Positions 78-62,288 of a stretch of DNA of 64,000 nucleotides are shown here, in pieces. Numbering within the stretch: position 1 is the first letter of the stretch; each line of letters starts with the position of its first letter. The DNA is from Sphingopyxis sp. H073 (GTDB lineage: Bacteria > Pseudomonadota > Alphaproteobacteria > Sphingomonadales > Sphingomonadaceae). Location of the stretch: NCBI RefSeq assembly GCF_001468395.1, contig NZ_LNSG01000014.1, positions 1-64,000 of the forward strand. Direction: 5' to 3'. Both the position numbers and the translations under genes were made by a program. Below the pieces are notes generated by a model that was not told where the DNA came from, did not search any database, and saw nothing but the letters and a program-made list of their open reading frames with translations.

Positions 78-99
78 AATCAATGGGTCCTGACCCTAG
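78..99. repeat. Solo end of the TA-GGGTC miniature element
   Basis: The end sequence ATGGGTCCTGACCCTA matches the right ends of the two complete elements at 6873-7141 and 30831-31004. No matching partner end is visible to the left within the window. The TAG stop codon of the restriction endonuclease lies inside this end. Confidence 0.75.
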
Positions 100-611
100 G
101 CGGTGTGCGTCAAGCCTTGCTGGGGAGGGAAGCCGTAAATCAACTGGCCATTCTCGCAAACGAAGCGGGCTGGTATTTTGGGATTATTCAGGTCCCTCTT
201 TCCTCGCTCCAACCAAGTTGCCTCCCACTTGGCAAAAAGTCCCTCAAGCTGAGGAGGAGACATGCGATAGACCGCAGACAACTCGATTCCACGATAGAAG
301 GCGAACAGCCAATCGACTGACCTGAAGTGCCTCAAAATTGCATCGTTAAGATGATGGTGCGTCGAGAAGCTGCGGGTCAACGACAGGTTCATCGTCTTGA
401 TCTCAAACTCCCTTCCCGACCTGTCTATCGCGTCACTTCCCGCTCGACCTGCAACAATCGTCAAATCCAGCTCGATCAATAGCTGAAGAAGCTTCCCGCC
501 GTTGTCCTGGAAAATGTCTGAAATCCCATGCGCGGAGGCGAGAGCCTGATACTCCCGTAACGCCGGGAACAAGCGATCGAGCCGCGCCTTGTCTTTATGT
601 GGTTTCAGCAT
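96..611 (-). CDS. PvuII-like type II restriction endonuclease
   Basis: Predicted homodimeric Mg-dependent nuclease that cuts unmodified CAGCTG sites, by close resemblance to R.PvuII as recalled. It has 171 aa against 157 for PvuII. FQDNGGK (34-40) carries D36, matching PvuII D34. The PD-(D/E)xK active site is D60, E70 and K72, and STHHH (83-87) matches the PvuII DNA-reading loop. A conserved NNPKIP block follows near the C-terminus. The start overlaps the upstream regulator gene by 7 bp, so the two are probably translated together. The last 12 or so residues extend past the PvuII end, and the stop codon lies in a repeat end. Low GC indicates transfer. All catalytic residues are present, so it is probably active. 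Confidence 0.93.
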   Translation of the reverse strand: MLKPHKDKARLDRLFPALREYQALASAHGISDIFQDNGGKLLQLLIELDLTIVAGRAGSDAIDRSGREFEIKTMNLSLTRSFSTHHHLNDAILRHFRSVDWLFAFYRGIELSAVYRMSPPQLEGLFAKWEATWLERGKRDLNNPKIPARFVCENGQLIYGFPPQQGLTHTA

Positions 612-902: not shown

Positions 903-1874
903 ATGCAAAGTGCCTATCGAACTGAATTTGGTGAAGCTTTTTCAGGAGACTCACTAGATTTGCTTCGGCAGATGCAGAATGAAAGCATCGATCTTGTCAT
1001 TACGTCACCCCCCTTCGCGTTACAGCGCGAGAAGGAGTACGGAAATAAAGATCAGGCAAGCTACATCGACTGGCTAACAGAGTTCGCCCAGCTTGTTTTT
1101 AAGAAACTGAAACCGAGCGGTAGCTTTGTGCTCGATCTTGGTGGCGCTTACCAAAAAGGCGCCCCTTCGCGTAGCTTATATAATTTCCGCGTGCTCATAA
1201 AGTTCTGCGACGAGCTTGGTTTTCATTTGGCTCAAGAATTTTTCTGGAACAATCCATCGAAGCTTCCGAGCCCCATAGAATGGGTGAATAAAAGAAAAAT
1301 TCGAGTTAAAGACTCAGTAAATACAATTTGGTGGTTTAGTAAAACTGAATGGCCAAAGGCAGACATAAGCAAGGTTCTGGTTCCATATAGCGATCGAATG
1401 AAAAAACTTCTCGACAACCCTGATCGATATTATTCGGCTGCGCAGAGGCCGAGCGGCCACGGCATCTCAAAGGGCTTCGCTACGGACAATGGGGGTGCTA
1501 TTCCGAGCAATCTCCTCAATATTGCAAACTCCGAAAGCAACGGTAACTATACGAAGGACTGTAAATTGATTGGGGCGCGGGTTCACCCGGCACGTTTTCC
1601 TGCCAAAATTCCAGAATTCTTCATAAAAATGCTGACGGACGAGAATGACTTGGTCGTGGATATATTCGGTGGTTCAAACACTACGGGTCGCGCGGCTGAA
1701 ACTGAGGCCCGTCGCTGGATAAGCTGCGATTTGAACCCTGAGTATGTAGCCGCATCAGCACTGCGATTTTTGCCGAGCAGCATGTCCAAAGACGAAAAGT
1801 TCGACGTCTATACACGTATCGTGAATGGCGAGACTTTAGACTTACAGGACGATATGCCAATGGCTGCCGAATGA
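903..1874 (+). CDS. PvuII-like N4-cytosine DNA methyltransferase
   Basis: Beta-class modification methylase, 323 aa. The catalytic motif TSPPF (34-38) comes first and the S-adenosylmethionine motif DIFGGSNTTG (about 253-262) near the C-terminus. TSPP is typical of N4-cytosine enzymes. Long stretches, such as SPIEWVNKRKIRVKD and HPARFPAK, match M.PvuII as recalled, so the predicted target is the internal C of CAGCTG. AGGAT at 890-894 is a fair ribosome-binding site. It is divergent from the regulator and nuclease genes. The stop codon overlaps the start of the next gene (ATGA), although the two genes are unrelated in function and GC. Confidence 0.93.
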   Translation: MQSAYRTEFGEAFSGDSLDLLRQMQNESIDLVITSPPFALQREKEYGNKDQASYIDWLTEFAQLVFKKLKPSGSFVLDLGGAYQKGAPSRSLYNFRVLIKFCDELGFHLAQEFFWNNPSKLPSPIEWVNKRKIRVKDSVNTIWWFSKTEWPKADISKVLVPYSDRMKKLLDNPDRYYSAAQRPSGHGISKGFATDNGGAIPSNLLNIANSESNGNYTKDCKLIGARVHPARFPAKIPEFFIKMLTDENDLVVDIFGGSNTTGRAAETEARRWISCDLNPEYVAASALRFLPSSMSKDEKFDVYTRIVNGETLDLQDDMPMAAE

Positions 1875-49265: not shown

Positions 49266-49348
49266 ACGCGCCTCCCTTGTTCGCCCCTTTTGCCACGCGG
49301 CGCACGGGGCGTCTTGAACCGATGCGACAATCATCGTCTAATCCGCAC

Positions 49349-50032
49349 ATGGACTATCGCGAGTTCGCTCCGCCGCCGCATCTCGCGGGTCTGATCAAGC
49401 TGCGCTGGACGCTCGCGGCCGAGGGCGACCCCGGCGCATGGCTGCCGCAGCAAGCGACCCCCGACGGCTGCGTCGAGGTCATCCGCCGTATCCGCGGGCG
49501 GTCGCGTTGGGGCGGCGACCAGCCGTCATGCTTCGTCGTCGGCCTCGTCGACCGCCCGCAGCCGTTCGAGGTCAGCGGCGATGCCGCGTTCGAGGCGCTG
49601 CGCCTCTGGCCATGGGCGTGGGGGCTCCTTGACGACGCGCCGCTTTCCGCGCTCTACGGGCGCTGGGCACCTTTCAGCGCCGACTTCGCCGCCATCGAGA
49701 CGCGGCTCGCCGCCGCGCCCGGTCTCGGCGCCATCGGTGCCGCGCTGATCGCCGCGTCGAGCGTGGCCGATATGGCCAAAAGGACCACGATGAATCCCCG
49801 CACGCTGCAGCGCTGGTTTGCCCGCCACGTCGGCCTGCCGCCCCGCGTCTGGCTCCGTGTCATCCGCTTCCAGAGTGCGTTCGAGACGCTGCCCGGCGAG
49901 CCGAACCTCGCCGATCATGCCGCCGCGCGCGGCTTCGCCGACCAGGCGCATATGGCGCGCGAGTTCCGGGCGCTTGCGGGCGTACCCGCGACGGCCGCTC
50001 GCCACCGCGCGCGCGGTCCGTTTCTGGCCTAG
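49349..50032 (+). CDS. AraC family regulator (DUF6597 N-terminal domain)
   Basis: A 227-aa regulator. The N-terminal half (DYREFAPPPHLAGLIKLRW, then TPDGCVEVIRR) matches the DUF6597-type sensor domain. The C-terminal half is an AraC HTH (TMNPRTLQRWFARHVGLPPR and HAAARGFADQAHMAREFRALAG). The ATG at 49349 fits the domain start; 49322 adds nine residues. Neither has a strong ribosome-binding site. The target is unknown, with divergent DUF6265 the nearest candidate. Confidence 0.82.
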   Translation: MDYREFAPPPHLAGLIKLRWTLAAEGDPGAWLPQQATPDGCVEVIRRIRGRSRWGGDQPSCFVVGLVDRPQPFEVSGDAAFEALRLWPWAWGLLDDAPLSALYGRWAPFSADFAAIETRLAAAPGLGAIGAALIAASSVADMAKRTTMNPRTLQRWFARHVGLPPRVWLRVIRFQSAFETLPGEPNLADHAAARGFADQAHMAREFRALAGVPATAARHRARGPFLA

Positions 50033-50106
50033 GCCGCCTGACTTTCCGCTGCGGCGCGCTGTCTTTCGATGGACAGCGCGCCGCCGCCCGGCTAAGCATC
50101 GCCCAT

Positions 50107-50197
50107 CCCCGGGGAGCCGCGTCTGTGATGGCCGGTTGAGAGCGGAATAGACCGCGACCCGTTGAACCTGATCCGGGTAATACCGGCGGAGGGAGGG
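50107..50197 (+). promoter_or_regulatory. TPP riboswitch (THI element)
   Basis: GGGGAGCC at the left, GAGAGC in the first pocket, and ACCCGTTGAACCTGATC, CGGGTAATACCGG, then GGAGGGAG at the right match the thiamine-pyrophosphate aptamer consensus. It lies 70 bp upstream of thiC, whose translation or transcription it should turn off when thiamine pyrophosphate is plentiful. Confidence 0.95.
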
Positions 50198-50252
50198 TCG
50201 GCTTCACCCCAAAGCGAAACGGGGCGTGAAAACCGTCTTTCGCTCCGGCTAA

Positions 50253-52160
<1,908 letters not shown>

Positions 52161-52180
52161 GAACTCCGAACAAGCCCACT

Positions 52181-53944
52181 TTATAGGCTCAAAATCTGAC
52201 GCACCTTATCGCCTAAACCGGCAAATCTATGGAAGGACGCCAAATCCTCCGATTTTGCCATCTTCTCAGTGAATCTCTTCTTCTCGGCGTTGTCGAACCT
52301 CAACGATTCTGAGCCGTCTGGGTCTATAATCCGCTTACAATGAGGAGATAGTAAATCCTCATCGAAAGCGTTTTCTATTCCCGCAGATGCTATTTTATTA
52401 TTCAAATTTCGCGGGATAACGTATTTGAAAAGCCCCTCGGTTTCCTCAAGATTTGCCACCTGCCTCTCTGCGTCACAATCCCATATGAACAGTATTTTTC
52501 TGTTAAGTCCGATTGCAGATATCAATTTGTAATAGTGAACGAGCTGCTCTTTGGAAGATTTGTCGTCCAATCTATCGATAAACTTTATATTATCCAATCC
52601 AGAAATATTAAAATATCTATTTAGTATTTTTCTGTTGCTACCTTCCGTAAATATAATGACCCTATCCCCTGAGAAACTAAGGGCCTCTAATCCTTCGTCA
52701 AATGTAGCAAATCCTTCTGTTAAAATTGATAAACCTTCATTTTTCGAAATTTTGACAATCTTTTTCTGCCTATTTCCTGCCTGAACTGAATGAAGCGCAC
52801 CCTCCGGAGCCAAGGCTACAGTCGTTGGAGAATGGGTTGCCATAATCACCTTTGTCCCTTTAGAAACGAAGGCGCGGCCTATGGCGTCTAGGAGGACCCT
52901 TATCATCGATGGGTGAAGAGATGCATCAACCTCACCTAAAAGTAAAACTTTCGGCAGCATAAATGACTCATTAGAGTAGTAAATACTTATGACGAGAGCC
53001 AATAAAACTTTTTCCCCTGACGAAAGGTTATCAAAATTACATATATCTCCAGATATTTTATTTCTTAGATTTGCGACAAAAGAGTATCCTTGGATGCTTT
53101 GAATTTTTATATGCTCCTCATCGGGAGTGGTAATTTCAAATCTAAACGCTTCTCGCGAAGCTGACATCTTTCCCATTTCATCGAGAAGTTTGTTTATTGG
53201 AACCCAAGGAGGTTGAAACTTTTTGCGGAAAATCGCTCTGCTCTTGGCCTTTGACGCGCTTCTCCCGGCTTCGAATTGGTTGTGGCACCAGTTAAATTCA
53301 TCAATTATAAATTTGGAAAATATTGTACTCAAAGAAAAACCAAGTATACTTCCAGAATTTTGAACCGGAGAAAACACCTCATAGAATGTTTCTTGATCGA
53401 TGACGTGGGGCGGTTTTGAACTTTTTTGGATTAGCGACCATATGGCTGGGTGCTGCGAACCTTTGGGAAGGCCGACCGTATCAGTAAGCCACAGCGTTAA
53501 TTTTTCTCGATATTCATTTACATGGGATTGGATGGCTTTTCCACGCGGCTTAAAATTCCAAAAATCTTCCACGGAGTTGTAAAAACTTGCGACGTCCGGA
53601 TAAGAAAACGTTGGTTTCCATGGAGAGGATAAAGATGCAAACAAGGTTTTTATCGGCGGAAGCCAATTTTGATGAAACTCTGTAAATCCCTGATTTGAAA
53701 GTTGCTGTATCTGATTAGGAACTTGCCCTTGGTTACTAGAAACGAAGAATGATTGGAAGTTGAAATACTGGATTTCGTCTGATCTGAAATTGTCTATTTG
53801 ACAATTTCCGCTGTCGATTGCTTGAAGAAGATGGGTTTTACCTGACCCATTTCTGCCGGTTAGGATCGTAAATTCAGGCAATTCCACAGAATCAAATTGG
53901 CGGATTGATATATGTTCGCCTACAAATTTTAGTTGCATTGGCAT
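52181..53944 (-). CDS. ATPase-TOPRIM (OLD-like) nuclease, putative defence protein
   Basis: A 587-aa protein fusing an SMC/ABC-type ATPase to a TOPRIM nuclease domain. Walker A GRNGSGKT is at 30-37, the signature NLSSGEK at 306-312, the H-loop ATHSPT near 369-374. The Walker B strand reads LLLGEVDASLHP (334-345), with Gly337 where Asp is usual; Glu338 remains. TOPRIM residues are E434 (IFTEGSNRK) and D489/D491 (WDCDAE), then GIENAF. OLD-family enzymes act in phage exclusion, alone or in Gabija-, PARIS- or retron-like systems. GC is far lower than in the flanks, so it is acquired. No partner gene is adjacent. Activity and role are inferred. Confidence 0.8.
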   Translation of the reverse strand: MPMQLKFVGEHISIRQFDSVELPEFTILTGRNGSGKTHLLQAIDSGNCQIDNFRSDEIQYFNFQSFFVSSNQGQVPNQIQQLSNQGFTEFHQNWLPPIKTLFASLSSPWKPTFSYPDVASFYNSVEDFWNFKPRGKAIQSHVNEYREKLTLWLTDTVGLPKGSQHPAIWSLIQKSSKPPHVIDQETFYEVFSPVQNSGSILGFSLSTIFSKFIIDEFNWCHNQFEAGRSASKAKSRAIFRKKFQPPWVPINKLLDEMGKMSASREAFRFEITTPDEEHIKIQSIQGYSFVANLRNKISGDICNFDNLSSGEKVLLALVISIYYSNESFMLPKVLLLGEVDASLHPSMIRVLLDAIGRAFVSKGTKVIMATHSPTTVALAPEGALHSVQAGNRQKKIVKISKNEGLSILTEGFATFDEGLEALSFSGDRVIIFTEGSNRKILNRYFNISGLDNIKFIDRLDDKSSKEQLVHYYKLISAIGLNRKILFIWDCDAERQVANLEETEGLFKYVIPRNLNNKIASAGIENAFDEDLLSPHCKRIIDPDGSESLRFDNAEKKRFTEKMAKSEDLASFHRFAGLGDKVRQILSL

Positions 53945-54109
53945 TCCCCCAGACCTGCGTCTTAATGCTCGCTAGCTTAGCGTAAAACTGTTGTTGCCAT
54001 AGTTCTTTTTGTCGGACTGTCGGTAGCGGTGGTGTTTACCAAACCCACGGATTCAAGGCGAAATGGAGAACGTGCCGTTCGGTACCGACACCATGCCACA
54101 CCCTCACCC

Positions 54110-54287
54110 ATGCGCGCCCGGAACCCCCTCACCATCACGGCCAAGCCGCCGCCGGAGGTTCAGGCGCAGATCGCCGCGCTGCCGCTTGGGCGATCCTTCG
54201 CGCGGCCCCGACCTCCTCCATGTCAAGCTCATCGCGCTATACGACCGGCACCATGTGCCGCCCGAGTGGCTGCCCGCGCGCCCCTGA
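54110..54287 (+). pseudogene. Decayed fragment, possibly 2'-5' RNA ligase-like
   Basis: Two frames carry consecutive protein-like pieces: NPLTITAKPPPEVQAQIAALP in one and DLLHVKLIALYD then VPPEWLPA in the next, with the switch near 54190-54205. LHVKL and the Pro-rich start faintly recall 2'-5' RNA ligase-type phosphoesterases. It is too short and broken to be active. The flanks (53945-54109) hold the upstream region of the ATPase-TOPRIM gene. The identity is tentative. Confidence 0.3.
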
Positions 54288-54618
54288 AACCTTGGTGCCG
54301 CGCCGGGCGGCTTCGCTGCGGCCCCACCGCAAGATGAGGCTTTCCTACATTATCCCGCCATGCTTCAAGCGGCCCGGAAAGCAGCATCCTTCCCTTTACG
54401 GCGCGCCATCCTTCCGCAGCGGCCCGGCAAGCGATCGCCATTGGGCTGAACTTTCCTGAACTTTGGATTCAGGGAGCGCGCCCTGCATCCCCGGAATCGG
54501 TGGCCGTCCGCGCCCGGTATCGCATGCGAAGGCGGAGCCACGTCAACGTGACCGGGCGGCGCGCAATAGCGCCGATCGCGGGAGATCGACGCCCGCGTCG
54601 CGGCTTATCGACTATGGA
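54288..54618. other. Intergenic stretch with no recognised gene
   Basis: High-GC sequence between the decayed fragment and tRNA-Cys. Short open frames here have no domain, signal peptide or ribosome-binding site. The tRNA transcript (minus strand) should end in this stretch; no clean terminator was identified. Confidence 0.5.
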
Positions 54619-54692
54619 TGGAGGCCCGAGCCGGAATCGAACCGGCGTATACGGATTTGCAGTCCGCTGCGTCACCACTCCGCCATCGGGCC
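54619..54692 (-). tRNA. tRNA-Cys (GCA)
   Basis: 74 nt including an encoded CCA. The acceptor stem pairs GGCCCGA with TCGGGCC, the T-arm is GCCGGTTCGATTCCGGC, and the anticodon loop is CTGCAAA with anticodon GCA. Its 3' end faces the low-GC ATPase-TOPRIM region, which begins about 670 bp away. Confidence 0.96.
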
Positions 54693-54844
54693 TCAGGCGC
54701 AGAATTGCGTGGAGACAGCGCCCCTAGCCGCTTTGTTTCGCAGTGGCAATCCGTTCGTTTCGCAATCTGCATCATCCGGCACGCGCATCGATGCGCACTT
54801 GGCTCCATCCCCTTTGCCCGCTATGCGCGGCGCGGCGGGGTCTT

Positions 54845-54874
54845 ATGGCTGTATTACTATTGCAATACAGCCAT
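54845..54874. promoter_or_regulatory. 11-bp inverted repeat upstream of methyltransferase-tolC
   Basis: ATGGCTGTATT and its exact complement AATACAGCCAT flank 8 bases. It lies 57 bp upstream of the methyltransferase start, a typical position for a TetR-like operator. The half-site TGTATT also appears in the dyad at 41112-41126. The rest of 54693-54930 shows no gene. Confidence 0.55.
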
Positions 54875-54930
54875 GCTTGGGCTAGAACCGCGCGATACAG
54901 GCTTGGGCCCAGGGAATCGGATAGAGACGG

Positions 54931-55593
54931 ATGGCAACGAAATTGAGCGAGACGGGTGCGGCCGCGATGCGCGCCGCGATGATCGACAGCCAGCTGCGCA
55001 CCAACGACGTCATCGACCCCGACGTCGTCGCCGCGATGGCCGCGGTGCCGCGCGAGGCGTTCGTGCCCGCCGCGCTTTCCGGCGTCGCCTATATGGACCG
55101 CGCGATCGCGCTCGGCGACGGCCGCGCGCTCAATCCGCCGCTCGTCACCGGCCGCCTGCTCGTCGAGGCGGCGGTGCGGCCCGGAATGCGCGTGCTGCTG
55201 GTCGGCGCCGCGACGGGCTATACCGCCGCGCTGCTCGCGAAGCTGGGCGCCGAGGTTCATGCCGTCGAGGAACGCGCCGACCTGATCGAGGCCGCGCGCG
55301 CCGCGGCGGGCGATCCGGCGATCGCCTGGACCCAAGGGCCGCTGGCCGCCGGCGCGCCGAAAGCCGCCCCCTTCGATCGCATCATCATCGAGGGCGCGGT
55401 CGAAACGCTGCCCGACGCGCTCGTCGCACAGCTCGCCGAGGGCGGGCGGATCGTCGCCGCGCGCCGCGATGGCAGCGTCTCGCGGCTCGTCCAGGGCGTG
55501 AAGGCGGGTGGCACCGTCGCGCTGCGCGCCTTCGCCGACATGGACGTCGCGCCGCTGCCCGGATTTGCCGCGCCCAAGGGCTTCCGGTTCTGA
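54931..55593 (+). CDS. Protein-L-isoaspartate O-methyltransferase family protein
   Basis: A 220-aa SAM-dependent methyltransferase of the Pcm family. MIDSQLRTNDVIDPDVVAAM and VPREAFVP at the N-terminus, GRLLVEAAVRPGMRVLLVGAATGYTA (SAM site, residues about 75-99) and FDRIIIEGAVE are typical. The SAM glycine motif reads VGAATGYTA rather than the common GTGSGY. This variety usually sits beside tolC in sphingomonads, as here, and may not repair isoaspartate. It lies 41 bp upstream of tolC and is probably co-transcribed. Confidence 0.85.
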   Translation: MATKLSETGAAAMRAAMIDSQLRTNDVIDPDVVAAMAAVPREAFVPAALSGVAYMDRAIALGDGRALNPPLVTGRLLVEAAVRPGMRVLLVGAATGYTAALLAKLGAEVHAVEERADLIEAARAAAGDPAIAWTQGPLAAGAPKAAPFDRIIIEGAVETLPDALVAQLAEGGRIVAARRDGSVSRLVQGVKAGGTVALRAFADMDVAPLPGFAAPKGFRF

Positions 55594-55634
55594 GCGTTGC
55601 CCGCCCCCTCCCCCGTTTCAGGCTGAACAAGACG

Positions 55635-57122
55635 ATGCATGACAAGATGACTATCGCAACCGGTCGCCGCGCCCGCTGGCTTGCCGGTCTCGCCTTCGGC
55701 GCGCTGGTCGCCGCATCGCCCGCGCACGCCGAAACGCTGCAGGGCGCGCTCGCCAAGGCCTATGAAAACAACCCGACCTTGACCGGCGCCCGCGCGGGGC
55801 AGCGCGCGAACGACGAGAATGTGCCGATCCAGAAGGCGGCCGGGCTGCCCTCGGTCGGCGCCAGCGTCGACTATCAGGAAAATCTGGTCGTCCCCGGCAA
55901 CAGCTTCTTCACCCCCGGCCGCTCGGTTTCGACCGGCGCGCAGCTGTCGGTCCCGCTCTATCAGGGCGGCGCGGTGCGCAACGCGGTGAAGGCCGCCAAA
56001 TATCGCGTCGAGGCGGGGCAGGCCGACCTCCGCGCGACCGAGGCGAGCATCTTCTCGCAGGTCGTCGGCGCCTATATGGACGTCATCCGCGACATCGCGA
56101 TCGTCCAATTGAACCAGAAGAATGTCTCGGTCCTCAGGACCAATTTGCAGGCGACGAGCGACCGGTTCGAGATCGGCGACCTGACGCGCACCGACGTCGC
56201 GCAGTCGCAGGCCCGCCTCGCGCTTGCCGAGGGCGACCTGCGCACCGCCGAATCGAACCTGATCCGCAGCCGCGAATCCTATATCCGCCTGGTCGGCGAC
56301 GCGCCGACCGACCTGCAGGCGCCGCCGGTGCTGCCGAACCTGCCGACGACGGCCGAGGAAGCGGTGGCGATCGCGCTCACCAACAATCCCGACATCGACG
56401 CCGCGAACCAGCGCCTCAGCGCCGCGCGCGCCGACATCGGCGCCGCGCGGGCGACCCGCGCGCCGAAGGTTTCGGCGACGGTCAGCGGCGGCTACAACAA
56501 TAACCTCAACTCGATCCCCGCCGGCAACACGACGTCGGACAATACGACGACGAGTACGATCGCCGGCGTGTCGATGACCCTGCCGATCTTCCAGGGCGGC
56601 CGCGCCTCGGCGCGCGTGCGCCAGGCGCAGGCGCAGACCAGCCAGGCGATCGAGAATTATGTCGCGGTCGAACGCGACGTGATCGCCCAGACGCGCGGCG
56701 CCTATGCCGCGTGGCAGGCGAACGAGCGGATCATCGCCGCGACCGAACAGGCGGTCGGCGCCAACGGCCTGTCGCTCGAGGGCGTCCGCGCCGAAAACAG
56801 CGTCGGCACCCGCTCGATCCTCGACATTCTGAATGCCGAACAGGAATATCTGAACACGCAGGTCCAGCTCGTCTCGGCACGGCGCAACAGCTACGTCGCC
56901 GCTTTCTCGGTCCTCGCCGCGATGGGCAAGGCCGAAGCGCGCGACCTCGGGATCGAAGGCGGCGCGCTCTATGACCCCGAGGTCAATTATCGCCGCGTGA
57001 AGGGCCAGCTCTGGGACTGGGCCGACGATCCGAAGCCGCAGCAGCAGGCAACCGACACCAGGACGGTTCCGGCCCCCGACGCCGGCGTCCCCGCCTATGT
57101 CGAAATGGGCCCGAAACAATAA
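55635..57122 (+). CDS. tolC: TolC family outer-membrane channel protein
   Basis: A 495-aa outer-membrane efflux channel for type I secretion or multidrug pumps. A signal peptide ends at SPAHAE. Two OEP repeats each carry long coiled helices: TLQGALAKAYENNPTLTGAR, VPLYQGGAVRN and, in the second half, TLPIFQGGRASARVRQAQAQ. ATG 55635 is used; a second ATG at 55647 is as likely. No inner-membrane pump gene is adjacent, so it probably serves several pumps. Confidence 0.93.
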   Translation: MHDKMTIATGRRARWLAGLAFGALVAASPAHAETLQGALAKAYENNPTLTGARAGQRANDENVPIQKAAGLPSVGASVDYQENLVVPGNSFFTPGRSVSTGAQLSVPLYQGGAVRNAVKAAKYRVEAGQADLRATEASIFSQVVGAYMDVIRDIAIVQLNQKNVSVLRTNLQATSDRFEIGDLTRTDVAQSQARLALAEGDLRTAESNLIRSRESYIRLVGDAPTDLQAPPVLPNLPTTAEEAVAIALTNNPDIDAANQRLSAARADIGAARATRAPKVSATVSGGYNNNLNSIPAGNTTSDNTTTSTIAGVSMTLPIFQGGRASARVRQAQAQTSQAIENYVAVERDVIAQTRGAYAAWQANERIIAATEQAVGANGLSLEGVRAENSVGTRSILDILNAEQEYLNTQVQLVSARRNSYVAAFSVLAAMGKAEARDLGIEGGALYDPEVNYRRVKGQLWDWADDPKPQQQATDTRTVPAPDAGVPAYVEMGPKQ

Positions 57123-57222
57123 GGCTTGGCAAAGGCCGCCCCCGGCCGGTAAGATGATGGTTAACCGCCTGGTAGGGCGACCCTGATATCGTGGGGCCCG
57201 GAATGGGCAAATGGGGGCAGTA

Positions 57223-57660
57223 ATGGGCGATCTGTCGCGGGAACCATCGATGGAAGACATCCTGTCGTCGATTCGGCGCGTCATCGCGCGCGACGAGGCT
57301 CCCGGTGCCCGCGCCCAGCGCGTCGCCGCCGCGAACGAGGATGTTCTCGACCTTCACGAAGGGGAAGCGCCAGATGATGCGATGGCCGATGCACCGCCCG
57401 TGATCCCGACCGAGGAAGAGCTGCTCTCGGCCGCCAGCGCCGATGCCACGCGCCAGTCGCTCGAAGCGCTGACCGCCGCGGTCGCGCCCGCGGTCACCGC
57501 CGCGATCCCGGCCGCCGCGACCGGCGGCCGCACGATGGAAGACGTGGTGATCGAGGCACTTCGTCCGATGCTGAAGGAATGGCTCGACGCCAACCTTCCG
57601 ACGATGGTCGAGGCGATGGTCGCCAAGGAAATCAGCCGGATCACCGGCAAGAAATTCTGA
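57223..57660 (+). CDS. PopZ-like protein (DUF2497)
   Basis: A 145-aa protein of the alphaproteobacterial PopZ/DUF2497 family, which forms polar assemblies that anchor chromosome origins and cell-cycle regulators. The N-terminal SREPSMEDILSSIRRVIARD and C-terminal VVIEALRPMLKEWLDANLP followed by VEAMVAKEISRI are its two hallmark helical parts. Between them is an Ala/Pro/Glu-rich disordered linker. ATG 57223 (MGDLSREP) with GGGGG upstream is chosen over 57211. A chromosome gene, smc, lies about 5.6 kb away. Confidence 0.88.
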   Translation: MGDLSREPSMEDILSSIRRVIARDEAPGARAQRVAAANEDVLDLHEGEAPDDAMADAPPVIPTEEELLSAASADATRQSLEALTAAVAPAVTAAIPAAATGGRTMEDVVIEALRPMLKEWLDANLPTMVEAMVAKEISRITGKKF

Positions 57661-57669
57661 TACTTATGC

Positions 57670-57798
57670 TCCTCCCTGCCGCAAAGCGGTGGGGAGGGGG
57701 ACCATCCGAAGGATGGTGGAGGGGCGGAAGCGCTGCGTTGTCGCCCCTCCGTCAGCGCTTCGCGCTGCCACCTCCCCATGGCTTCGCCACAGGGAGGA
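57670..57798. repeat. Complex GGGGAGGGGG repeat, copy 2
   Basis: Bounded by TCCTCCCTG and CAGGGAGGA, with internal arms GGTGGGGAGGGGGACC and GCCACCTCCCCATGG. The ATCC-GAA-GGAT hairpin in the middle replaces CTCGC-GAA-GCGAG of copy 1 (48677-48805). It lies between the convergent PopZ-like and nudC genes. Confidence 0.75.
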
Positions 57799-57800
57799 AG

Positions 57801-58670
57801 CTACCCCGCCCAATCCTCCAGCAAATAACGCGCGATCGCCAGCGGCGGCGGCGCCATGAAGCTCGCCCCCATCTCGCCGGAGAGCGCGGCCCGCACCTCG
57901 GCGCGGTCGACCCACATCGCCGCCTCGAGCTCGGTCGTATCGATCGTCAGCGCCGTATCATGCGCGACCGCGCGGCAGCCGATCATCAGCGACGAGGGGA
58001 AGGGCCAGGGCTGGCTCGCCACATACACCACGTCCGACACCTGGATCCCCGCCTCCTCGAACAATTCGCGCGCCACCGCCTCTTCGAGTGATTCGCCAGG
58101 CTCGACGAACCCCGCGAGCGCCGAGAAGAAGCCCGGCGGAAAGCCCGGCTGACGCCCGACGAGCACGCGGTCCTGATATTCGGCGAGCATGATCACCACG
58201 GGATCGACGCGCGGGAAATGCTCCGAACCGCAATTGTCGCACTTCCGCCCCCAGCCGCCCCGAAAAATCCCGGTCGGCGCCGCGCACACCGCGCAGAAAC
58301 CGTGCCGCGCGTGCCAGTCGACCAGGCTGCGGGCGCCGCCGTAAAGCGCCGCCTCCTCGGGCGACAGCAAGGGGATCAGCCGCATCACCGTCCGCGAGCG
58401 CGCGTCGATGCGCGTGCCGGGCGCGGGCGCGTGGACGAAGCGCGGCGCCCCGGCATCGTCGATCCCGAGCAACAGCAGCGCGCGCTCGTCGGCGGGGTCC
58501 AACGGTTCCCAGATCAACCCGCCCCGCTCGCCGGGGACCGGATCGATCCCGTCCATCGCGAGACAGGTCGCGCGCGGATCCTGCGTTGCCGCCGCAAACG
58601 CTTCCGCATCGGTACGCAGGCGATCGGCGCGGTCGAGCCGCGCTCCGGTGAAACCAAGCGGCAGCGGCAT
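57801..58670 (-). CDS. nudC: NADH pyrophosphatase (NudC)
   Basis: A 289-aa Nudix hydrolase that cleaves NADH to NMNH and AMP, and in E. coli removes NAD caps from RNA. The zinc ribbon CAVC...CDNC, the Nudix box GFVEPGESLEEAVARELFEE and the NudC-specific SQPWPFPSSLM are present. The start overlaps the stop codon of the serine hydrolase gene by one base (TGATG). It is the last gene of the mutY-hydrolase-nudC operon. Confidence 0.95.
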   Translation of the reverse strand: MPLPLGFTGARLDRADRLRTDAEAFAAATQDPRATCLAMDGIDPVPGERGGLIWEPLDPADERALLLLGIDDAGAPRFVHAPAPGTRIDARSRTVMRLIPLLSPEEAALYGGARSLVDWHARHGFCAVCAAPTGIFRGGWGRKCDNCGSEHFPRVDPVVIMLAEYQDRVLVGRQPGFPPGFFSALAGFVEPGESLEEAVARELFEEAGIQVSDVVYVASQPWPFPSSLMIGCRAVAHDTALTIDTTELEAAMWVDRAEVRAALSGEMGASFMAPPPLAIARYLLEDWAG

Positions 58671-59956
58671 CAGGCCATCACATCCTTGTAGAAATTCTTC
58701 CCGAAGTCGCGCTGGAAGGGCAGCGCCTCGGCGGGCATATATTGCGCATAGCCACCGACGCGGCAGCCGCGCTTGCGATCGACGAAGCCGATCGTTCCCG
58801 CCGCGCCGCCCCAGCCGAAAACGCCCTCGCCCGTCGGCGAGGTCGGCAGCGACACGCGCCCGCCCGCGCCGAACCCTTCGCCCTCGACGAAGCTGTTCTT
58901 TGTCGAGGCGCCCGCGGGCAACAGGTTCGACATCGCGAGCCTGGCGGTCTCGGGCTTCAGGATCCGCACGCCGTCCGTCTCGCCTTCGCCGAGCAGCATC
59001 GCGAGGAAGCGGTCATAGTCGCGCGCGGTCGAAACGAGCCCGCCGCCGCCATAAGGGATCGGCGGCTTGTCGAGATAGATCGAGCTCGTCGCGGGATCGA
59101 TCGGCAGCAAGGCGCCACCAAAGGGGGCATAGTTGGTCGAAAGCCGGCCGACGTCGGCCGCCGCGACCTGAAACCCCGTGCTCTTCATCCCCAGCGGATC
59201 GAACAGGCGCGTCTTCAGGAACAGGTCGAACGGCTGCCCCGATACGACCTCGATGACGCGGCCGAGCAGGTCGAGCCCGACCGAATAGCTCCACTGCGTG
59301 CCGGGTTCGTGTACAAGCGGCAGCTTGGCGAGCCGGTCGGCGAATTCGGCAAGGCTCGGCGCGGGCTTCGACGCCGGCAAGCCCGGAATCGGCAGGCGGC
59401 TGACCTGCCCGCCCAGAATCCCCTGCTCGTTATAGGCGTCGCGCAGCGGTCCCTTCTGGACGATCCCGTAACCGAGGCCCGCGGTATGCGTCAGCAGGTG
59501 GCGCACCGTGATCAGCGTCTTCGCATCGCGCACGTCGGTCAGCGAGCCGTCGGGGGTGTTCTGAACCTTCATCTTCGCAAAGGCGGGCAGGATGTCGGCG
59601 ATCGGCTGGTCGAGCTTGAGCTTGCCGTCCTCGATCAGGATCATCGCCGCGATGCCGGTGACCGGCTTGGTCATCGAATAGAGGCGCCAGATCGTGTCGC
59701 CGTCGACCGCCCGCGCCGAATCCATCGCCTGCGTGCCCGCGCCGAAGACGTCGAGCGCGCCCTGCCCCTTGCCGATCGCGGCGAGCGTCCCGGCGAGTTC
59801 GCGCCGGTCGACGAAGCCCTCGATAAAGGCCGCGGTCGCCGGATAGGCCGCACCGCCGTCGGCTTTCCACGCCAGCGCCGCGCCCGGCAGCATCAGCCCT
59901 GCGCCGCCCAGCGCGAAACCGCCCAGCAGCGCCCGGCGCGAAACCATCATGGTCAT
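58670..59956 (-). CDS. Serine hydrolase (beta-lactamase family, class C-like)
   Basis: A 428-aa penicillin-binding-protein-like esterase or peptidase. A Tat-type signal (SRRALLGGFALGGAGLML) precedes the domain. The catalytic SxxK is SMTK in LYSMTKPVTGIAAM, followed by a Tyr motif YSV and the late GWGGAAGT region in place of KTG. Such proteins are usually esterases rather than antibiotic-resistance enzymes. The start overlaps the mutY stop codon (ATGA). The substrate is unknown. Confidence 0.88.
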   Translation of the reverse strand: MTMMVSRRALLGGFALGGAGLMLPGAALAWKADGGAAYPATAAFIEGFVDRRELAGTLAAIGKGQGALDVFGAGTQAMDSARAVDGDTIWRLYSMTKPVTGIAAMILIEDGKLKLDQPIADILPAFAKMKVQNTPDGSLTDVRDAKTLITVRHLLTHTAGLGYGIVQKGPLRDAYNEQGILGGQVSRLPIPGLPASKPAPSLAEFADRLAKLPLVHEPGTQWSYSVGLDLLGRVIEVVSGQPFDLFLKTRLFDPLGMKSTGFQVAAADVGRLSTNYAPFGGALLPIDPATSSIYLDKPPIPYGGGGLVSTARDYDRFLAMLLGEGETDGVRILKPETARLAMSNLLPAGASTKNSFVEGEGFGAGGRVSLPTSPTGEGVFGWGGAAGTIGFVDRKRGCRVGGYAQYMPAEALPFQRDFGKNFYKDVMA

Positions 59957-60981
59957 GAAATTCTCTCCCGCATCTTGTCGGTCAGTTTGCGATAGAGCGT
60001 CGGCAATCCGGCCGCGTCAAGCGCCGAAAGCGGCCACCACTCGCCTTCCCCTGCGGCATCCTCGCTTTCGCGGGCAACGAGCGTCAGGCGAAGGTCGAAA
60101 TGGGTGAAACCATGATCGACCTGGACGATACCGGACTCGGCGGGCGGCACGTCGGTCCAGGCACCGCCGGGCAGCGCGCGCATTCCGCCGAGCATCCCCT
60201 TGTCGGGACGGCGGACGAGCCAGATGGCATCGTCGCGCTCGATCCAGTGCGCGACGCCATAGCGCTGCGGCTTCGCCTTTTTCGCGGGCTTGACCGGCAA
60301 GCGCTCGATATCGGCGCGGCCCCGCGCGCGGCAGTCGACCATGACCGGGCAGATGCCGCACGCGGGCGCGCGCGGCGTGCAGATCGTCGCGCCGAGGTCC
60401 ATCAGCGCCTGCGCGAAGTCGCCGGGCCGGTCGCCGGGAAGCAGCGGCGCCAGCTCGGCGCGAATCGCGCGCTTGGCAGCGGGAAGCGGGGTTTCAATGA
60501 GCCGGTGCCGGGCGATCACGCGTTCGATATTGGCGTCGATCACCACCGCCGGGCGCCCGAAGGCGATCGCGGCGACTGCCGCGGCCGTATAATCCCCGAC
60601 CCCCGGCAGCGCGCGCAGCCCCGTTTCGCTATCGGGAAAATGCCCGTCATGGTCGCGGGCGACGGCGCGCGCGCAGGCGAGCAGGTTGCGGGCGCGGGCG
60701 TAATAGCCGAGCCCCGCCCAGGCCGCCATCACGTCGGCGTCGTCGGCCGCCGCCAGATCGGCGACCGTCGGCCAGCGCGCGACAAAGCGCTCGAAATAGC
60801 CGGCGACCGCCGCGACCGTCGTCTGTTGCAGCATGATCTCGGCCATCCACACGCGGTACGGATCGGGCACCGCATCGCTCCCCGGCGGAATGCGCCACGG
60901 CAGCGCGCGCGCCGACCGGTCGTACCAGCCGAGCAAACGCGCGGCGAAACTGTCGATGCTGCCTGAAGTCTGGACGCTCAC
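59953..60981 (-). CDS. mutY: A/G-specific adenine DNA glycosylase
   Basis: Removes adenine mispaired with 8-oxoguanine; 342 aa from a GTG start at 60981. The catalytic Glu is in AEIMLQQTTV, the helix-hairpin-helix is LPGVGDYTAAAVAAI, and the catalytic Asp is in VIDANIERV. The iron-sulfur cluster has the C-x6-C-x2-C-x5-C spacing (CTPRAPACGICPVMVDC). A C-terminal Nudix-like domain reads the 8-oxoG strand. It is divergent from the DUF721 gene with only 14 bp between starts, so the promoters must overlap coding sequence. Confidence 0.96.
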   Translation of the reverse strand: MSVQTSGSIDSFAARLLGWYDRSARALPWRIPPGSDAVPDPYRVWMAEIMLQQTTVAAVAGYFERFVARWPTVADLAAADDADVMAAWAGLGYYARARNLLACARAVARDHDGHFPDSETGLRALPGVGDYTAAAVAAIAFGRPAVVIDANIERVIARHRLIETPLPAAKRAIRAELAPLLPGDRPGDFAQALMDLGATICTPRAPACGICPVMVDCRARGRADIERLPVKPAKKAKPQRYGVAHWIERDDAIWLVRRPDKGMLGGMRALPGGAWTDVPPAESGIVQVDHGFTHFDLRLTLVARESEDAAGEGEWWPLSALDAAGLPTLYRKLTDKMRERIS

Positions 60982-60995
60982 CCCCCGCCTATGGC

Positions 60996-61565
60996 ATGGC
61001 GGCGGCGATGGCGAAAGCGGACACTCCCAAAGGCGAAAAGCCGAAGAAGAAGGCGGCAAAAAAGCCCGACGCCAAGCCCTATGAGCGCCCGCGCGGCGGC
61101 GAGGCGCGCTCGATCGCCGACCTCGTCCCCGAAATCGGCCGCACCGCCTTCCGCAAATTCGGCTTCATCCAGTCGTCGGTGGTCAGCCGCTGGCGCGAGA
61201 TCGTCGGCGACCGGCTCGCCGACGTCACCCAGCCCGCGATGATCCGCTTCCCCGCCGGGCAGAAGGCGGGCGGCACGCTGCACCTGACGATCAGCGGCGC
61301 GCACGCCCCGATGCTCCAGCATGTGTCGCCCGACATCATCGCCGCGGTGAACCGCTTCTTCGGCTATGCCGCGATCGCCACGGTGCGGATGACGCACGGT
61401 CAGGTGACCCCCGCCGCCCCCGTTCAGCCGCCCGCAATGCTCAAACCCGTACCCGAAGAATTGGGGGATAGCCTTCGCGATATCGGCGACCCGGAACTGC
61501 GTACCGTGCTCGAACGCATGGCGGCGGGGCTGGCGTCGGCGCCGAAGCTCCCCCGGATCAGTTGA
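60996..61565 (+). CDS. DUF721 family protein
   Basis: A 189-aa cytoplasmic protein with a basic, lysine-rich N-terminus (KPKKKAAKKPDAK) and a DUF721 core: FGFIQSSVVSRWREIVGDRLADVTQP, then LHLTISGAHAPMLQHVSPDII. The family (Zn-ribbon/RNA-binding-like) is often encoded beside mutY or dsbA-like genes in alphaproteobacteria and may bind nucleic acid; its role is unknown. It is 9 bp before the first DsbA-like gene. Confidence 0.88.
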   Translation: MAAAMAKADTPKGEKPKKKAAKKPDAKPYERPRGGEARSIADLVPEIGRTAFRKFGFIQSSVVSRWREIVGDRLADVTQPAMIRFPAGQKAGGTLHLTISGAHAPMLQHVSPDIIAAVNRFFGYAAIATVRMTHGQVTPAAPVQPPAMLKPVPEELGDSLRDIGDPELRTVLERMAAGLASAPKLPRIS

Positions 61566-61574
61566 AGGCCACGC

Positions 61575-62288
61575 ATGTCCCGACTTCTCCCGCCCGTCCG
61601 CCACATCGCCGTCGCAGTTGCCGCCACCGCCGCGCTCGCGCTGTTCGCCGCCGCCACGCCCGCGCAGCCCGTCCGCTGGTCGGCGAAGGTCGAAACCAGC
61701 CCGATCGGCGCCTATATCGTCGGCAACCCGAACGCGAAGGTCCGGCTCGTCGAATATTTCAGCTATACGTGCAGCCATTGCGCCGAATTCGCCAAGGCCG
61801 GCACCGTCCCGCTGCGCACCCTCTATATCGACAAGGGACTGGTGCTGTTCGAATATCGCAACCTCGTCCGCGACCCCGTCGACATGACCGCCGCGCTGCT
61901 CGCGCGCTGCGGCGCGCCGGCTGCCTTCGCCGGAAATCACGACGCGATCTTCGCGGCGCAGCCGGTCTGGCTCGGCAAGGTCGCCAAGGCGACCGAAGCG
62001 CAGAGGAAAAGCTGGTATCAGGGCAGCCTCGGCGACCGCGCGCGCAGGATCGCCGCCGACACCGGGCTCACCGCGATCATGCAGAAGCGCGGCTATACTA
62101 CGGCGCAGATCGGCACATGCCTCGACAGCGAGGTCGCGCAGGCGGAGATCGCGGGGATGACCAACATCGGCCAGAACGCCGATCGCGTCGCGGGCACCCC
62201 GACCTTTTTCATCAACGGCCGCAACGCCGCCGTGGTCCAGTGGACCGCGCTCAAAACGAAACTCGACGCCGCCCTGAAGGGCTCCTAA
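61575..62288 (+). CDS. DsbA-like periplasmic thioredoxin-fold protein (1)
   Basis: A 237-aa exported protein. A signal peptide ends near ATPAQP. The active site is CSHC (YTCSHCAEF) in a DsbA/thioredoxin-4 fold, with the cis-Pro loop AGTPTFFING. It probably forms or shuffles disulfides in secreted proteins. The next gene is a paralogue with the same CSHC motif, so the pair arose by duplication and may divide labour. Confidence 0.9.
   Translation: MSRLLPPVRHIAVAVAATAALALFAAATPAQPVRWSAKVETSPIGAYIVGNPNAKVRLVEYFSYTCSHCAEFAKAGTVPLRTLYIDKGLVLFEYRNLVRDPVDMTAALLARCGAPAAFAGNHDAIFAAQPVWLGKVAKATEAQRKSWYQGSLGDRARRIAADTGLTAIMQKRGYTTAQIGTCLDSEVAQAEIAGMTNIGQNADRVAGTPTFFINGRNAAVVQWTALKTKLDAALKGS

Follow-up and report, generated by a model that had tools for sequence, protein, structure and literature searches.

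A probable single-gene, OLD-like ATPase-TOPRIM defence gene with an altered Walker B motif in a variable slot beside thiC of Sphingopyxis sp. H073

ATPase heads of the ABC type dimerise around ATP, and they accompany a TOPRIM nuclease in OLD, PARIS and retron systems. Two such nucleases, P2 Old (PMC13261556) and the AriB protein of PARIS (PMC12409363), are reported to cut tRNA. HEC-04, in which an ABC ATPase is fused to a TOPRIM domain, is reported to be active against T4 and T5, though not against T7 or lambda (PMC12111858). Understanding of isolated OLD genes is described as still poor (PMC13261556). The gene described here belongs to this architectural group. It lies within a 64,000-nucleotide stretch of the Sphingopyxis sp. 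H073 genome (contig NZ_LNSG01000014.1, positions 1 to 64,000), hereafter the window. We consider it probable that the gene is a horizontally acquired, single-gene ATPase-TOPRIM of OLD-like type; that the family to which it belongs stops phages by abortive infection; that it occupies an exchangeable slot next to thiC; and that this particular copy is impaired by a glycine at position 337. The gene, its ATPase domain, its predicted TOPRIM fold, the conservation of both, the slot and the residue change all emerge directly from the computations set out below.

The ATPase-TOPRIM gene extends over 52181-53944 on the minus strand, with an intact reading frame that encodes 587 amino acids. The second ATG, at 53938, is the more likely start as judged from the sequence, because GGGGGA stands 6 nt before it and because the relatives begin with MxLxF; the gene would then comprise 585 codons. 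No other match was found in its own genome at E<=0.001. The initial annotation had described the gene as far lower in GC than thiC, and this holds true: the GC content of the coding sequence is 0.40 versus 0.66 for thiC, and GC3 is 0.39 versus 0.88. The dip in composition, from about 52.2 to 54.0 kb, is scarcely wider than the gene itself. Across the window, 7 of 127 overlapping 1-kb segments fall below a GC of 0.55, and 4 of those 7 lie over the slot next to thiC. The two genes are convergent, with stop codons 20 nt apart; scans for promoters and terminators returned matches at chance level only. Elsewhere in the window, a low-GC pair (about 0.49) at 96-1874 is a second possible defence insertion, consisting by eye of a small restriction endonuclease (96-611, minus strand) and an SPPF-type DNA methyltransferase (903-1874, plus strand).

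To characterise the family, we used an alignment of 16 rows, termed A3, which comprises the window protein and 15 of 21 loci found in a collection of genomes. Six loci were left out, namely L024 and L032, which are cut by contig ends; L033, L035 and L036, which are distant; and L034, whose frame is broken. L024 was included in a further alignment, A4. In the N-terminal half, the Walker A motif GRNGSGKT (residues 30-37; 53834-53857, minus strand) includes K36, and G30, N32, G33, G35 and K36 are unchanged in all 16 aligned sequences. The ABC signature LSSGE (residues 307-311; 53012-53026, minus strand) is likewise invariant in 16 of 16, as are H371, S372 and P373 of the H-loop THSP (residues 370-373; 52826-52837, minus strand). 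Together with a Pfam match of the window protein to AAA_21 (67.5 bits), these motifs bear out the ABC/SMC-type ATPase with K36 that had been proposed at the outset. A structural model of the full-length protein was obtained with a pLDDT of 80.7 and a pTM of 0.60. Its ATPase part matches the heads of PtuA, SMC and cohesin (VIA Z about 13-14 for PtuA and SMC), and the OLD protein of T. scotoductus is found in row 49 of the Foldseek matches for this model, with an E-value of 2.3e-6. The model also predicts a helical stretch within the ATPase domain, at about residues 76-260, which may be a counterpart of the dimerisation insert of class 1 OLD proteins.

The C-terminal domain, about residues 425-587 (52184-52672, minus strand), is assigned a TOPRIM fold from predicted structure and conservation. 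Folded alone, the C-terminal 183 residues yielded a pLDDT of 85.8 and a pTM of 0.82. When the structural matches of this domain were re-ranked with VIA, retron Eco2 came first (Z 9.8 over 167 aa, 4.0 A), with further Eco2 entries at 9.6 and 9.3; the list also includes the OLD proteins of B. pseudomallei (Z 9.6, 143 aa, 3.8 A) and X. campestris (Z 8.5-8.7). The eighth match is chain 8ux9_A of PARIS (Z 7.6), which we take to be AriB because chain B is AriA; it is followed by an uncharacterised archaeal protein at Z 7.5, a near tie, and by other folds at 6.4 or below. In a Foldseek search, nothing matched the C-terminal domain at E<=0.001 and the top-ranked hits were unrelated enzymes; none of the Pfam TOPRIM models matched the window protein at E<=1. 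The TOPRIM assignment is therefore a prediction, which rests on the re-ranked structural matches and on the conserved residues E434, D489 and D491.

These residues are located at 52643-52645, 52478-52480 and 52472-52474, respectively, all on the minus strand. All 16 aligned sequences have E434 and D489, and 15 of them have D491, with glutamate in its place in L026. Two further residues of the domain, E524 (52373-52375) and K555 (52280-52282), also on the minus strand, are invariant in 16 of 16 and are plausible sequence equivalents of the metal-B S/T-x-E motif and the catalytic lysine of class 1 OLD proteins. The initial annotation had named the same three acidic residues, and they were found at the positions it gave; it had also proposed a comparison of a predicted structure with OLD and AriB structures, and that comparison does predict a TOPRIM core, with OLD and retron Eco2 structures at the top. 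The residue four positions past the TOPRIM glutamate, or E+4, is non-acidic in all 12 members of the subfamily to which the window gene belongs, giving the motif EGxNx. A second subtype, with five rows in A3 (L023, L025, L028, L029 and L031), has the usual EGxxD. Class 1 OLD homologs are said to conserve an aspartate at E+4, which is D381 of TsOLD and belongs to metal site B (PMC7049728).

In the Walker B motif, VLLLGEVD (residues 333-340; 52925-52948, minus strand), codon 337 (52934-52936) is GGT, for glycine, one base away from GAT; that is, the motif reads LLLGEVD and not LLLDEVD. Aspartate occupies this position in all 15 aligned relatives, and glycine is found solely in the window copy; the adjacent E338 is invariant in 16 of 16. 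At 38 columns the other 15 sequences all agree, and the window copy differs from them at only three of these (D337G, S383A and A404G); in the same comparison, the other rows depart at 0 to 8. Thus, the window protein shows no general decay, though one catalytic-type residue has been lost. Mutation of the Walker B aspartate is reported to end ATPase activity in OLD classes 1 and 2 (PMC12796447), and the Walker B mutation D299A is reported to abolish the lethality of P2 Old (PMC7049728). We infer that Gly337 probably cripples ATP hydrolysis in the window copy, and that it probably leaves this copy either without activity or locked in an ATP-bound state. Inactivity is not to be assumed, however, because YbjD is reported to keep its anti-phage effect with a mutated Walker A motif and also without its TOPRIM domain (PMC13261556).

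The alternative that survives best is that the gene is dead or decaying, i.e., a defence gene that was acquired horizontally, was inactivated at Walker B and is now leaving the slot. Gly337 fits this account well, as the only catalytic-type loss among the 16 aligned sequences besides the conservative D491E of L026, and so does the gene that adjoins the slot on the right, which is broken too (see below). Decay is harder to reconcile with a frame that is open across 587 codons and with so few changes at invariant columns; in addition, Gly337 may be a sequencing error in one contig. We regard this alternative as a serious contender that falls just short of being probable.

The ATPase-TOPRIM gene is flanked by thiC on one side, and by a broken border gene and a tRNA-Cys gene on the other. 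Comparison of genomes delimits a variable slot at 52161-54087, which extends from the thiC stop codon to the point at which identity with G811, the nearest related genome found, resumes. Its left border, thiC (50268-52160, plus strand), is recognised by the Pfam ThiC model and is preceded by a TPP riboswitch at 50100-50211 (62.2 bits, Rfam). On the right, 54088-54337 (plus strand) is the remnant of a conserved gene that is open over ~170-190 aa in some related species; in the window it is truncated and its frame is disturbed. By eye this right-border gene resembles 2H phosphoesterases; the PF13563 (2'-5' RNA ligase) model gave no match to it at E<=0.01 in 3 genomes, and a PDB sequence search returned no relative. 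The next feature to the right is tRNA-Cys(GCA), at 54619-54692 on the minus strand. This tRNA gene is not near thiC in 17 of 18 other genomes examined, and G811 is the only one with the same order as the window.

G811 is 95% identical to the window over 50033-52159 and 96% identical over 54088-61697; from the thiC stop codon up to 54088 its DNA is different. Its slot contains a gene whose product, an ATPase-TOPRIM protein of 506 residues, fits the PADLOC model for HEC-04 nearly end to end, at 715 bits. Identity between the two genomes declines towards the slot: the last bins of thiC are at 0.94, 0.93 and 0.90, and the right side opens with four bins at 0.85 to 0.93; the other bins are at 0.93-1.00, except for a bin at 0.65 that spans the start of thiC. 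This fall in identity fits an exchange of cassettes by recombination in the borders, but part of the right side is also non-coding or broken sequence. A repeat search over 51900-54700 revealed no repeat pair framing the slot. A short dispersed element lies beside it, at 54339-54468; further copies occur at C4:69365-69504 of the same genome and elsewhere in the genus. Further to the left, a gene at 49277-50032, AraC-like in appearance when judged by eye, stands between the two stretches that align with G811 and has no match there. In both L121 and L123, part of the slot content lies between two partial right-border copies, which may be a trace of cassette entry.

To survey the slot across the genus, we relied on its two borders. 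The 3' part of thiC could be located in 59 of 60 genomes. The right-border query matched 57 of 80, in some cases via the short dispersed stretch only. Of 40 thiC-downstream regions fetched, 29 have both borders on one contig and were used, and 11 were left uncounted; this proportion is a selection by borders and not a frequency. The 29 slots range from 1526 to 5833 bases (median 2062), with a median GC of 0.51 and 23 of them below 0.55. Their contents mostly vary from genome to genome; by eye, recurrences are seen, for example, in L119/L140, L122/L123 and L142/L145, and a high-GC slot gene recurs in L127/L132. Pfam was run on 30 of 70 slot ORFs (26 genomes), and PADLOC on 19 of those and the G811 gene. 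The ORFs scanned were low in GC and the more promising ones, a choice that biases the count of defence genes upward.

The Pfam matches include a dCMP deaminase, three reverse transcriptases, a CAP12-type TIR domain, a DprA-like protein, GmrSD_N (under its cut-off), an OLD-like AAA_15 ATPase, an AAA_16 ATPase, RelA_SpoT and a Panacea domain. With PADLOC, the HEC-04 match of G811 is the highest, followed by Drt9 (510 bits), dCTPase (472), Drt8 (439), PsyrA (166, over half of the model), DzbA of Dazbog (164, over two thirds), a general reverse transcriptase model (149), an ATPase-type model matched by the OLD-like protein (101), PDC-S33 (55) and PsyrT (39). As a small control, 10 genes of the window that lie outside the slot were scanned in the same way, and none reached 100 bits; a MutY-like protein came to 99.7 bits with a type II nicking-enzyme model, and the PCMT gene to 52 bits with mad2. 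We regard the slot as an apparent defence hotspot. Hotspots of a similar kind in a core genome have been reported for Pseudomonas aeruginosa (PMC10250203). No title describing a defence slot at thiC appeared among the best-ranked literature matches for thiC, Sphingomonas or Sphingomonadaceae combined with defence. That related species carry recognised defence genes in this slot lends added support to the single-gene defence reading of the family.

An explanation that we consider possible, yet less probable than not, is that the slot is a general landing site for accessory genes, in which defence genes are merely a sample of the mobile ones. Such a site would account for the 10 of 20 slot proteins that have no PADLOC match at 1e-5 and for the 14 of 30 ORFs that have no Pfam match at 0.001, as well as for matches that carry no defence label, namely TPR and PPR-like proteins, a 5'-nucleotidase and DUFs; moreover, the ORFs scanned were chosen by hand. 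What weighs against it is that several recognised systems are matched over at least half of their models, those for dCTPase, Drt9, Drt8, RT, DzbA and PsyrA, and that the control genes yielded nothing at 100 bits. The proteins of L124:973-2757, L129:1487-2455, L141:1191-2636 and L146:1478-2365 are low in GC and have no match in either Pfam (at 0.001) or PADLOC, and that of L123:2207-3421, also low in GC, has a single Pfam match under its cut-off. We regard these five as candidate novel defence genes. If confirmed as a hotspot, the thiC slot would be a simple address for new defence genes in the genus, because several of its occupants match neither Pfam nor PADLOC.

The ATPase-TOPRIM family itself is sparsely distributed. 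Within the genus the gene was found in 1 of 80 genomes, the window's own; in the class, 3 of 385 genomes gave matches at E<=1e-40, again the window's own plus two partial ones; and 397 genomes of the same taxonomic family contain, besides the window's own, one full-length relative (33% identity) and three partial ones. Scans of genome, viral and phage collections with the single sequence returned no relatives, nor did a scan of the viral collection with a two-row alignment, and searches of plasmids gave partial relatives only. The two-row alignment search of the genome collection produced the 21 loci referred to above, in proteobacteria, Electrothrix, Electronema, Acidobacteria, Planctomycetota, Bacteroidota, CPR lineages and a Nitrosopumilus. 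The GC of the gene is below that of its flanks in all 18 loci measured, by 0.05 or less in 6 of them. In the tree, the window gene pairs with L016 (98/97), a locus identical in position with L011/L002, and the pair falls within a clade of 11 rows (99/98) that bears six phylum labels; the tree is rooted at its midpoint and leaves many inner forks unresolved, and the branch of the window row is long. These sequence comparisons suggest horizontal transfer of the gene. In a Bathymodiolus symbiont genome (L034), the relative is present only as fragments in different frames.

We also compared the neighbours of the family members, using ORFs of at least 60 aa within 4 kb in 17 loci and the window at 47-59 kb. 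The flanks at L020, L024, L028, L031 and L032 are short or missing, and L027 was read with table 11, its genome seemingly using code 25. Shared families occur only in the sister pair L018/L022, plus one family in L025/L030. A PADLOC scan of 10 neighbours in the window detected no helicase, reverse transcriptase or AriB-like partner, and an Rfam search of 49800-55000 detected no retron RNA at E<=0.1. The initial annotation had seen no partner gene and had named a consistent partner at homologous loci as one observation that would overturn its proposal; among the neighbours compared, the former view stands and no such partner appeared. By eye, type I restriction-modification subunits surround the relative in L031, and a methyltransferase-like gene follows that in L024; so viewed, restriction-modification genes provide a defence context for these other members of the family.

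From the architecture and from the precedents cited at the outset, we infer an anti-phage role for the family, together with a trigger and a target. Two ABC-type heads would clamp ATP and hold the nuclease site of the C-terminal TOPRIM domain inactive until an infection cue altered the nucleotide state, whereupon this site would cut nucleic acid, either tRNA or DNA, and halt the cell. A single protein would thus act as both sensor and effector. This scheme seems the likeliest because the pairing of such heads with a TOPRIM domain is known, and because P2 Old and AriB are reported to cut tRNA. In the window copy, the scheme would probably stall at ATP hydrolysis, with either loss of function or a locked state as the outcome. 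The proposal of a one-gene defence system thus gains support at the level of the family, to which the slot adds, and becomes doubtful for this allele on account of Gly337. A bolder version, which we hold to be rather doubtful, is that the family forms a class of its own that spans domains of life and consists of single-gene ATPase-TOPRIM immune nucleases whose metal site is altered, with EGxN in place of EGxxD, that the thiC hotspot swaps one- and two-gene systems by recombination in the flanks, and that the Gly337 protein is a natural ATP-locked form.

It is unlikely, in our estimation, that the window copy is deficient in hydrolysis and works nonetheless, with ATP binding alone controlling the nuclease and Gly337 being tolerated or even activating. 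There are precedents for this alternative, as YbjD (OldB) with the change K35A is reported to stay anti-phage and to become more toxic (PMC13261556), and a change of either Walker B glutamate of Cran1 is reported to have no effect (PMC12796447). The aspartate is nevertheless retained by every aligned relative, 15 of 15, and is reported to be required by P2 Old (PMC7049728). That the gene is not a defence gene at all but a housekeeping or DNA-repair ATPase-nuclease, in the manner of Cran1, an archaeal OLD protein of a class reported to work in the cell cycle and not in defence (PMC12796447), is very unlikely given its occurrence in a single genome of the genus, its GC deficit at every locus measured and its place in a slot whose contents are swapped. 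We therefore retain the reading of a horizontally acquired, OLD-like single-gene defence family with a probably impaired copy in the window. With its altered metal site in the TOPRIM domain and its natural change at Walker B, the family allows the role of ATP in OLD-type proteins to be probed directly.

It remains to place this family among the named systems, against which it was compared. The best PADLOC models for the window protein are AriA (72 bits) and ATPase-Toprim_I-B (68.5 bits), scores that are mainly due to similarity of the ATPase. None of the models in the PADLOC libraries fits the family, and NCBIfam has no match near its cut-off. Gabija GajA, a class 2 OLD protein, shares the ATPase-TOPRIM plan, and class 2 OLD structures match the TOPRIM domain; Gabija is rejected in that no UvrD/GajB-like helicase is found among the 10 neighbours. 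The ATPase-TOPRIM of retron type I-B, a class 3 OLD system, is likened to the window protein by the second-best PADLOC model and by the Eco2 TOPRIM domain as the best structural match, and is rejected in that neither a reverse transcriptase (10 neighbours) nor a retron RNA (49800-55000) was found. PARIS, whether AriA plus AriB or the fused AriAB, likewise combines an ATPase with a TOPRIM-like nuclease, to which the 8ux9_A match corresponds. The window gene, by contrast, is a fusion for which no second gene was found, its score to the AriAB model is only 53.5 bits, and DUF4435 is not among the 11 Pfam families matched at E<=1; PARIS is rejected on these grounds.

Two further systems are encoded by single genes. 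HEC-04, or IbfA, is a single-gene ABC ATPase-TOPRIM, and it is HEC-04 that fills the thiC slot in G811. It is, however, shorter, and BLASTP aligns it with the window protein only locally (25% over 83 aa, E 8e-5), mainly around Walker B. HEC-04 is outside the best 25 of 122 PADLOC families for the window protein, the 25th of which scores 35.4 bits, whereas the G811 gene reaches 715 bits; membership is thus rejected. The class 1 OLD proteins, which include P2 Old, T. scotoductus OLD and E. coli YbjD/OldB, resemble the window gene in being encoded by a stand-alone gene and in having an N-terminal ABC ATPase, with Walker A, signature and H-loop, and a C-terminal TOPRIM domain with the E...DxD set of metal A. 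A profile of the 16 members of A3 finds T. scotoductus OLD at an E-value of 3.6e-5 over profile positions 323-513, i.e., from about Walker B into the TOPRIM domain, although no single stretch passes the threshold. They differ in that the window subfamily lacks the metal-B acid at E+4, that the window copy lacks the Walker B aspartate and that the PADLOC Old model is outside the best 25 matches of 122 families. Because of the two residue differences, class 1 OLD membership is rejected, and we file the gene as an OLD-like single-gene variant; the profile match to T. scotoductus OLD and the VIA matches to OLD structures uphold the original description of an OLD-like nuclease.
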